Shown piece by piece: positions 51,111 through 54,782 of a stretch of DNA of 64,000 nt (position 1 is the first letter of the stretch; every line of letters starts with the position of its first letter). A model generated the notes under the pieces. It worked only from the letters and a program-made list of their open reading frames with translations. It did no database searches and was not told the origin of the DNA. The translations under genes were made by a program, and so were the position numbers. The DNA lies in the NCBI GenBank assembly GCA_003278095.1, contig QCHB01000001.1, positions 132,001-196,000 on the forward strand, written 5' to 3'. The stretch comes from SAR116 cluster bacterium AG-390-L20. GTDB taxonomy: Bacteria; Pseudomonadota; Alphaproteobacteria; Puniceispirillales; Marisalimonadaceae.

Positions 51111-51139
51111 TTGACATTATTTAAATATAATAATATTTG
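51111..51139 (+). promoter_or_regulatory. sigma-70-type promoter for irr
   Basis: TTGACA at 51111-51116 and TATTTG at 51134-51139 with 17 bases between. It lies 43 bases before the irr start. The -35 is perfect; the -10 is weak. Confidence 0.5.
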
Positions 51140-51144
51140 AATAT

Positions 51145-51159
51145 TGAGAACGATTATCA
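51145..51159. promoter_or_regulatory. Fur-family-like operator upstream of irr
   Basis: TGAGAACGATTATCA is an imperfect 7-1-7 palindrome close to the Fur consensus half-sites (TGATAAT...ATTATCA). It lies between the -10 and the irr start codon, suited to repression or self-regulation by an iron regulator. Confidence 0.4.
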
Positions 51160-51181
51160 AATAATATATATAATTTAAGTT

Positions 51182-51580
51182 ATGAATAATAAAGAAAAAT
51201 TAAGAAATGCAGGACTTAGACCTACTAAACAGAGGATGATAGTCGCTGATATACTACTAAATGGTTTTAATAGACATTTTACAGCTGAAAATCTCCAAGA
51301 TGAAATTAATTCATCTGGTAATTCTATGTCTATAGCTACTGTATATAACTGCTTAAAAAAATTTAAAAATTGTGGACTTATTAAACAAGTTGAAACCTCT
51401 AAAGATACAGCGATATTTGATACAAATACGGATTATCATCACCATTTTTTAAACGAAGAGACTGGTGAGTTAATAGATATTGAAAACGAAGAGATCAGTT
51501 TACATAAGCTACCTGAAATCCCTCAAGGATATTTAAACAACGGTATTGAAGTTATAATAAAATTAAAGAGACATAATTAA
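51182..51580 (+). CDS. irr: Irr-type Fur family transcriptional regulator
   Basis: The 132-residue protein aligns well by eye with the alphaproteobacterial Irr group: LRNAGLRPTKQRMIVADIL and the recognition-helix region SIATVYNCLKKFKNCGLIKQV in the winged-helix domain, then FDTNTDYHHHFLNEETGELIDI, where the His cluster binds heme or metal, and the LPEIPQGY segment. In Rhizobiales Irr represses iron-using genes and activates storage under iron limitation; heme binding ends its activity. It lies 101 bases upstream of katG, a heme enzyme it may regulate. Weak ribosome site; start fits the family N-terminus. Confidence 0.88.
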   Translation: MNNKEKLRNAGLRPTKQRMIVADILLNGFNRHFTAENLQDEINSSGNSMSIATVYNCLKKFKNCGLIKQVETSKDTAIFDTNTDYHHHFLNEETGELIDIENEEISLHKLPEIPQGYLNNGIEVIIKLKRHN

Positions 51581-51589
51581 ATTTTTTAC

Positions 51590-51606
51590 TTTAAAACCGT
51601 TCTAAA
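51590..51606. promoter_or_regulatory. candidate Irr box (iron control element) before katG
   Basis: TTTAAAA-CCG-TTCTAAA is a 7-3-7 inverted repeat with a single mismatch and resembles the TTTAGAA-N3-TTCTAAA type motif I recall for alphaproteobacterial Irr. It ends four bases before the katG -35 box, next to the irr gene itself. Confidence 0.45.
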
Positions 51607-51610
51607 CTAC

Positions 51611-51639
51611 TTGACATATATCTACACAATTCATATTTT
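51611..51639 (+). promoter_or_regulatory. sigma-70-type promoter for katG
   Basis: TTGACA (51611-51616), 17-base spacer, TATTTT (51634-51639), 42 bases before the katG start. The best promoter match I noticed in the window. Confidence 0.6.
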
Positions 51640-51642
51640 TAA

Positions 51643-53817
<2,175 letters not shown>

Positions 53818-53842
53818 TAATAATTAACTAAAAATTAAATTA

Positions 53843-53866
53843 GGCGGTTTTAACCGCCTTTTTTTT
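53843..53866 (+). terminator. intrinsic terminator after katG
   Basis: GGCGGTT (53843-53849) pairs with AACCGCC (53852-53858), followed by eight T (53859-53866). The T run touches the stop codon of the convergent xerC gene. On the minus strand the hairpin is followed by a T-rich stretch too, so it may end both transcripts. Confidence 0.9.
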
Positions 53867-54782
53867 ATGAGCGAGGGTGTATTGCTTTGTGTAACTTTAG
53901 TAATTCGCTTTCATTGACGTCAGTATATCTCTGAGTTGTTGAAAGACTTGAATGACCCAAAAGTTGTTGAATAGCTCTTAGATCTGCTCCACCAGACAGT
54001 AAATGAGTTGCAAATGCATGTCGAAGTGCATGAGGAGTAGTATGAGATGGTAAGCCTAATTCATATCTTAAATTTTCAACTCTCCTTTGAATAATTCTTG
54101 GAGAAAGTTCTCCACCTCTTTTTCCAAGGAACAGTGGTTCATCTTCTTTTACATCATATGGGCACAGCTCAAGGTATTCCTTAACACCCTCACAGATTAT
54201 AGGTAACAAGGGTACATCTCTATACTTGTTACCTTTTCCTTTTACTCTCAACCAGTCACTTTTTGGAGCTTCTTTCTTTTTAAGAGATAATGCTTCACTT
54301 ATTCTAAGACCTGAACCATATAATAATAACATTACAGCTCTATCTCGAAGGTTAATCCATTGGTCATTTTCATTATCCATTAGAGATACAAAAGCTTTAG
54401 CGACAAGATCCGAATCAATGGATTTAGGATAACTCCTTTTAAGTTTAGGACTTTTGAAAATAGATATATCAAGAGTTAAAATAACCTTATCTTTCAATAA
54501 GAATTTAAAAAAATTTTTTAAACTAGATATTTTTCTTGCAACTGTCGGTCTTGATAATTCTCGTTCAGATAAAACTGATAAGAATTCTCTTAAAATATAC
54601 TTATCTGGAGATAAAAAGTCATGATTTCTTTCAGTACAAAATTTTAAAAATTCTACTACATCCCTTTTATAGGCATCAAGAGTATGCACCCCATACCCTC
54701 TAATATTTTCTAAATATTTAATCCAAGGTAAAACAACATTATTTTTTGTATTTAAGATATTATTTTGTTTTATAGTATCCAT
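53865..54782 (-). CDS. xerC: tyrosine recombinase XerC
   Basis: The 305-residue recombinase has the N-terminal SAM-like DNA-binding domain (YLENIRGYGVHTLDAYKRDV) and the catalytic residues in order: Arg in GSGLRISEAL (about 159), Lys in VKGKGNKYRDVPL (about 184), HxxR in HALRHAFATHLLSGG (about 250-253), His in LLGHSSLSTTQRYT (about 276) and the nucleophile Tyr (about 285). With XerD it resolves chromosome dimers at dif. XerD, found elsewhere as a rule, is similar, so C versus D is a judgement from length and context. Confidence 0.9.
   Translation of the reverse strand: MDTIKQNNILNTKNNVVLPWIKYLENIRGYGVHTLDAYKRDVVEFLKFCTERNHDFLSPDKYILREFLSVLSERELSRPTVARKISSLKNFFKFLLKDKVILTLDISIFKSPKLKRSYPKSIDSDLVAKAFVSLMDNENDQWINLRDRAVMLLLYGSGLRISEALSLKKKEAPKSDWLRVKGKGNKYRDVPLLPIICEGVKEYLELCPYDVKEDEPLFLGKRGGELSPRIIQRRVENLRYELGLPSHTTPHALRHAFATHLLSGGADLRAIQQLLGHSSLSTTQRYTDVNESELLKLHKAIHPRS

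Follow-up and report, generated by a model that had tools for sequence, protein, structure and literature searches.

A predicted Irr operator between irr and katG in a SAR116 cluster bacterium, and rubrerythrin behind the same operator in other Alphaproteobacteria

Does the regulator gene irr, which stands directly before the catalase-peroxidase gene katG in SAR116 cluster bacterium AG-390-L20, control its neighbour? The two genes lie in a 64,000-nucleotide stretch of contig QCHB01000001.1 (positions 132,001 to 196,000), called the window here, where a 132-amino-acid Fur-family gene at 51182-51580 and a 711-amino-acid catalase-peroxidase gene at 51682-53817 follow each other on the plus strand with 101 nt between them. 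A preliminary description had proposed that Irr directly controls katG through an operator in this gap. As far as sequence comparison can tell, direct control is the best reading, because the predicted operator is conserved with irr-katG through the order, is nearly unique in the genome, and recurs beside irr before the gene of another scavenger. We consider it probable that irr and katG form a two-gene cassette in which Irr binds at 51590-51606 and, most likely, keeps katG repressed until it is itself inactivated by heme or peroxide. The features of the locus are as follows.

51111-51116, plus strand: possible -35 of irr, TTGACA, found by direct reading; no good -10 lies at 16-18 nt and the promoter scan missed it.
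51145-51159, no strand assigned: Fur-type box TGAGAACGATTATCA, located in the leader of irr with 22 nt separating it from the start codon (ATG at 51182), found by direct reading and pattern search.
51182-51580, plus strand: irr, 132 amino acids, Irr/IrrA-type Fur-family regulator (PF01475, 86 bits; NCBIfam IrrA, 142.9 bits).
51590-51606, no strand assigned: ICE-type Irr box TTTAAAACCGTTCTAAA (ICE, iron control element), the predicted katG operator, from pattern search, shuffles and conservation.
51611-51616, plus strand: -35 of katG, TTGACA, 4 nt (CTAC) after the ICE-type box.
51634-51639, plus strand: -10 of katG, TATTTT, 17-nt spacer from the -35.
51682-53817, plus strand: katG, catalase-peroxidase HPI, 711 amino acids (PF00141; NCBIfam TIGR00198 and NF011635 over cut-off).
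53842-53866, plus strand: probable intrinsic terminator 3' of katG, AGGCGGTT-TT-AACCGCCT followed by a T run, from direct reading only.

The irr-katG gap and the regulator

The gap reads TTTAAAA-CCG-TTCTAAA at 51590-51606, then CTAC, TTGACA, 17 nt and TATTTT, both by direct reading and by pattern search. The box is one mismatch from the ICE consensus, TTTAGAANNNTTCTAAA, and locus L125 matches that consensus with no mismatch. The 7-3-7 repeat described earlier as an Irr box ending four bases before the katG -35 is therefore present. The katG promoter is the best of seven promoter-like sites in the region, with 10 of 12 consensus bases; seven such sites are no more than shuffled sequence gives (mean 5.9). 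Dinucleotide shuffles of the 101-nt gap reached one mismatch or fewer to TTTAGAANNNTTCTAAA in 14 of 20,000 cases (P=0.0007). The palindromes of the katG box and the leader box are imperfect, with 6 of 7 and 5 of 7 half-site positions matching, and a generic inverted-repeat search listed 11 pairs with neither box among them.

In the source genome (2.23 Mb, 33 contigs, 93% complete), eight places come within one mismatch of TTTAGAANNNTTCTAAA. Six of the other seven lie within open reading frames and one at the folP/glmM junction, so that the katG box is the genome's sole promoter-positioned ICE at this threshold. The motif is not enriched at looser thresholds, either under a looser pattern (18/13 against 16/18 in the reversed control) or at three mismatches (1118 places against 1466 in the reversed control). 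With no enrichment across the genome, the case for the katG box rests on position and conservation.

The product of 51182-51580 is best read as Irr. Its best NCBIfam model is IrrA (142.9 bits, 7 short of the cut-off of 150), followed by Irr (137 bits, cut-off 170). Three of five relatives tested pass the IrrA cut-off, namely L113 (170 bits) and L100 (160 bits), both irr-katG, and L267 (191 bits), irr-rubrerythrin; L090 (138.6 bits) and L108 (130.4 bits) miss it. Three PF01475 genes were found in the source genome: irr, one nearest the Fur models and one nearest Zur, with neither of these two over its curated NCBIfam cut-off.

A PerR identity was tried and rejected, as the protein scores 79 of 200 bits against the PerRA model and has no CxxC zinc pair. 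The likeness to PerR-catalase systems lies in Fur-family control of a catalase and in the metal site. PerR has five metal ligands, H37, D85, H91, H93 and D104, which align with H32, D80, H86, H88 and D99 of this Irr, and all five aligned residues are invariant in an alignment of 14 Irr proteins of the order. The only cysteines are C57 and C64, and no N-terminal Cys heme regulatory motif was apparent on direct reading. Residues 86-88 are HHH and so contain the HxH heme-binding motif of Irr (PMC7762939). For its part, KatG scores 1081 bits against the cat_per_HPI cut-off of 770, and a search of the source genome for PF00199 catalases gave no match (Mn-catalases were not searched for). Past the katG terminator, and convergent with katG, lies a tyrosine recombinase (PF00589/PF02899) at 53865-54782 on the minus strand.

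The predicted operator in the family, the order and the class

The family of the window (f1) was searched in 58 genomes from four genera, with Irr matches taken at 52% identity or more. Irr was found in 42 of these genomes and katG in 43, the extra katG being an incomplete copy in G016, which has no Irr match. In all 42 loci irr is followed by katG as its neighbour on the same strand, with a gap of 75-112 nt, and in all 42 a box occurs with at most two mismatches, 40 of them within the strict gap and two overlapping the irr stop codon. When 13 dereplicated members of the family are compared with the window, mean identity reaches 0.91 over 51588-51616 and 91% at the -10, against 61% in the gap downstream of the -35, 71% at the end of irr and 83% at the start of katG. 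In genus g4 the box reads TTTAGAAT(T/A)ATTCTAAC, which also has one mismatch, at a different position from that in the window.

The order as a whole was searched in 136 genomes and gave Irr in 104. Of these, 62 are not from the family of the window, and 40 of the 62 matches were retrieved with their surroundings. The irr-katG pair is kept in 38 of the 40; one of the remaining two stops at a contig edge (L088) and in the other no katG was found in the stretch (L104). The best box of the 38 pairs has at most two mismatches in 27, three in five, four in five and five in one, and shuffles of these gaps reach two or fewer in about 0.4%. The preliminary description had named absence of the motif from relatives that keep irr-katG as what would speak against Irr control; at two mismatches or fewer, the motif was kept in 42 of 42 family loci and 27 of 38 others, and the claim withstood the comparison.

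The distance from box to -35 is 3-4 nt in 40 of 42 f1 loci and 4-5 nt in 34 of 35 loci of f3 and f4, while in all three f2 loci the box sits on the -10 (TTGACA-N17-TATATT in L108, TTGACT-N16-TATATT in L107 and L109). In L110 both halves of the katG box are altered alike, TTTGAAA/TTTCAAA, as expected of a site bound by a dimer. Odd boxes also occur in L095, L099, L112 and L114, and in these and L110 the recognition helix of Irr ends in LRQF or LRHF. This hints at co-evolution of regulator and operator, in a tabulation of helix residues against box variants where lineage is confounded with the box.

The same geometry was found more widely in the Alphaproteobacteria. The pattern ICE-N4..7-TTGAC occurs in 30 of 385 class genomes and in none of the reversed control. 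The 30 loci hold 31 places, and 24 loci have the site directly behind irr: 19 before a rubrerythrin gene, as identified by the query PF02915, and five before katG, three of these from the order of the window; in L279, katG starts 488 nt behind irr. Six loci are without irr, of which four precede a sufB-like gene and two have no clear target. The four sufB-like cases (L251-L254, site at 1501) are from small f27 genomes, with the ICE and TTGAC directly before the gene and no irr in the 3-kb stretch; the SufBD domain was checked in L251 only.

A second set consisted of 80 named irr loci, 76 of them with enough sequence behind irr to be used. The irr-katG pair occurs in seven of the 80, six being records of this order and the seventh L223. 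Of the 34 loci in which rubrerythrin or katG follows at no more than 600 nt, 31 have an ICE with at most three mismatches; of the 42 others none has one (Fisher 3e-18). The loci include near relatives and are not independent, and chance matches are likelier in the scavenger group, where shuffles reach three mismatches or fewer in 2.4% against 0.2% in the other group, so that the P value overstates independence and not the pattern. Where the box has at most three mismatches, it lies 2-5 nt from the -35 in 31 of 32 loci; the class-wide spacing of 3-6 nt is partly fixed by the search pattern.

Rubrerythrin seems to be missing from the order itself. No match was found in its 136 genomes, in a search that had no positive control, and none in its 82 irr loci, while the same query matched 30 of 80 and 19 of 30 loci elsewhere. 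Genus g24 of f8 has irr-ICE-rubrerythrin in two genomes and irr-ICE-katG in one. One genome speaks against equating SAR116 with katG: AG-447-C21 (L192), named SAR116 cluster, has irr-ICE-rubrerythrin. L192 groups with rows from outside the order in a tree of Irr, and the SAR116 name may be loose here. This was a quick tree of 123 rows, with few columns and many open forks, using 28 of the 82 order loci and leaving out nine order-locus copies (L161-L165, L176, L264-L266). In it, the Irr proteins of SAR116 families f1, f3 and f4 form one group (26 rows, SH-like approximate likelihood ratio test 93), f2 lies outside on a very long branch, and L262 groups with rubrerythrin-linked Irr (88). The katG label changes at least five times on this poorly resolved tree, or once if only starred branches count.

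Altogether the conserved unit can be read as irr, operator, promoter and peroxide scavenger, with a scavenger that differs and katG in the slot of rubrerythrin. More tentatively, and with the odds leaning against it, irr-ICE-promoter might be a self-contained plug-in switch behind which the scavenger has been exchanged between rubrerythrin and katG, apparently more than once; Irr would then be a local, PerR-like controller of its neighbour, and its global role in rhizobia a later expansion.

Direction and ownership of the proposed control

In the proposed circuit, the ICE-type palindrome that adjoins the katG promoter on its upstream side, at 51590-51606, would be the binding site of Irr. When heme or iron is short, heme-free Irr would cover or hinder the -35, and the heme enzyme KatG would not be made; when heme is plentiful, or when peroxide destroys Irr, katG would be released. 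This genus would have a further iron input through a Fur site in the leader of irr, where Fur loaded with iron would lower irr. Such a cassette would be the SAR116 form of a wider arrangement of irr, ICE, promoter and scavenger, in which rubrerythrin more often takes the place of katG. Heme-free Irr is reported to bind ICE sequences, and heme-bound Irr of B. japonicum has been suggested to be degraded oxidatively (PMC7762939). Release of katG by peroxide is plausible, because of this suggested degradation and because the PerR metal ligands align with invariant residues of Irr.

For the sign of the control there is another reading, in which Irr activates katG from the box upstream of the -35 and katG is made when heme or iron is short and Irr abundant. 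We hold this to be rather unlikely. An activator could just as well use a box 3-5 nt upstream of the -35, as in f1, f3 and f4, or one at 2-5 nt, as in 31 of 32 named loci. A review gives the position of the ICE as what decides between repression and activation, and describes direct activation as frequent (PMC7762939). Iron limitation raises rbr and suf transcripts in Pelagibacter (PMC2864753), which suits activation if the promoters there are alike, and four f27 genomes have an ICE with TTGAC in front of a sufB-like gene (family tested in one). Repression is favoured because the f2 box, before the same gene pair, lies on the -10, where repression is the natural reading; because f1 katG promoters are near consensus (9-11 of 12 bases in the seven compared); and because a cell short of heme would do better not to make a heme enzyme, whose production then would be poor logic. 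It is also favoured by R. sphaeroides, in which Irr binds ccpA, the start of ccpA is about 40 nt past the box, and its expression in low iron is 1.8 times higher without irr (PMC3413700). The same study has several points on the other side: ccpA showed no difference in normal iron, most Irr-affected genes were higher with Irr, and Irr did not bind the katE promoter. Further points that weigh against repression of katG by Irr at this box come from the sequences: in most members of the genus the half of the box farther from the -35 departs by one base, 11 of the 38 non-family loci have a best box 3-5 bases off, and the source genome's own Irr scores under the curated IrrA cut-off. In addition, the strict pattern TTTARAANNNTTYYAAA finds no site at all in two f3 genomes, G077 and G119, whose katG boxes (L105 and L103) are 2 and 3 bases off the consensus.

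Three other explanations leave the sign aside. An OxyR-type activator might be the main control of katG, with Irr secondary, which is compatible with the box as an Irr site; OxyR controls katE in R. sphaeroides (PMC3413700), and LysR-type genes are present in the source genome. We hold a main role for OxyR to be unlikely. No protein there passes the OxyR cut-off: the best, from a gene truncated at a contig end, reaches 69 of 329 bits, and of 14 control genomes just one has a protein that passes. The irr-katG gap holds no conserved block besides box-to--35, -10 and start region. It seems improbable that Irr is a mere neighbour and that Fur or the Zur-like protein, both also of the Fur family, owns the box. 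Fur-family proteins use related palindromes and the source genome has three PF01475 genes; against this, its Fur-type sites have a different sequence, TGAKAATNATTMTCA, and several are close to fur and to a ferritin-like gene; across the class, the presence of the ICE goes with the identity of the genes that follow irr, and the ICE is found again in front of a different gene adjoining irr. Hardly to be credited is a chance AT-rich palindrome conserved through synteny. The missing enrichment at loose thresholds and the inverted-repeat search that did not list the box would fit chance, but the shuffles (P=0.0007), the keeping of the box where the rest of the gap diverged, the similar geometry before rubrerythrin and the symmetric change in L110 (TTTGAAA/TTTCAAA) would not. 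Repression of katG by Irr stays the preferred reading.

The leader box, the wider regulon and known systems

The palindrome noted earlier in the irr leader, TGAGAACGATTATCA at 51145-51159, is present and Fur-like, but as one of two matching operators it fared less well than the katG box: the katG box fits the ICE, and the leader box fits Fur-type sites better, with one mismatch to TGAKAATNATTMTCA against three to the ICE. It has the TGATAATNATTATCA-type 7-1-7 palindrome common to the genome's other Fur-type sites. TGAKAATNATTMTCA occurs at one mismatch or fewer in 15 places of the source genome and in six of the reversed control; six of the 15 lie behind fur and around a ferritin-like gene (contig C14), and at least four others lie inside open reading frames. 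Within the genus, 27 of 29 members carry the leader box with at most two mismatches, and in most members it is 3-4 mismatches from the ICE; none of the 13 members from the family's other three genera has a leader box within two mismatches of the Fur type. Genus g3 has an ICE-type leader box instead, TTTAGAATGGTTTTAAA, starting 26 nt before the irr start in both members (L058, L059); a leader ICE at two mismatches or fewer was found only there and in L111. The leader box is probably a Fur site, confined within the family to this genus, and its being nearer to Fur-type sites than to the Irr box suggests Fur control of irr. Weak Irr binding there would be the poorer reading.

Two observations concern the other Fur-type sites. 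The densest group of the 15 is at G000:C14:40764-42563, with five sites in 1.8 kb around ferritin-like (PF00210) and DUF4856 genes. Another, TGATAACAATTATCA (one mismatch; G000:C4:119920-119934, L077 1501-1515), stands before a rhodopsin gene (PF01036) at a distance of about 180 nt, and iron control of this light-driven pump is possible.

The genome scan for ICE sites before heme and iron genes, put forward with the original claim, gave no sign of a wide regulon. A broad ICE regulon in the source genome was rejected, since neither the scans up to three mismatches nor the looser pattern shows enrichment over the reversed control, and no second promoter-placed ICE at one mismatch or fewer was found. 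Among the matches listed, 17 of the 19 two-mismatch places inspected with their loci lie within open reading frames. Of 30 looser-pattern loci inspected, some poorer AT-rich matches are intergenic, the best being G000:C4:175379, with two mismatches, about 300 nt before a solute-binding-protein-like gene. In six other genomes of the order, pattern TTTARAANNNTTYYAAA gave 0 (G077), 2 (G082), 0 (G119), 3 (G088), 4 (G103) and 1 (G066) distinct places; three of the six show the katG box, and on inspection by eye, without a family search, none of the further places resembled a gene of iron or heme metabolism.

The arrangement resembles several known systems. It shares with the Irr/ICE regulon of Rhizobiales and Rhodobacterales (Bradyrhizobium, Rhizobium, R. 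sphaeroides) the Irr family, a 7-3-7 palindrome of ICE type near the promoter, and targets that include iron proteins and peroxide defence (mbfA, ccpA); unlike there, the predicted operator here stands between irr and the target gene, and no other promoter-placed ICE was found at one mismatch or fewer. The irr-rubrerythrin neighbourhood of other Alphaproteobacteria has the same ICE before the -35 in the gap after irr, with rubrerythrin and not katG as target. Mycobacterial furA autoregulates from its own promoter. Like mycobacterial furA-katG and the Streptomyces fur-catalase pairs, the locus has a Fur-family gene beside katG or a catalase (PMC2464607), but the Fur subfamily is a different one, and here a separate predicted operator and promoter precede katG, with a Fur-type box in the irr leader. 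It also differs from PerR in lacking the CxxC zinc pair and scoring far below PerR models. Irr sites before catalase-peroxidases were predicted in 2006 (Rodionov et al., as reported in PMC2464607), so that Irr control of a catalase-peroxidase is already in print as a prediction. We met no description of irr-ICE-katG or irr-ICE-rubrerythrin, or of their exchange, in the open-access literature searched.

Peroxide is a major stress in surface seawater, and so is a shortage of iron. The SAR116 cluster gains a concrete, predicted circuit that would tie heme and iron status to the only catalase found in the source genome, and within one genus, g24 of f8, the operator is kept while the target gene behind it differs.
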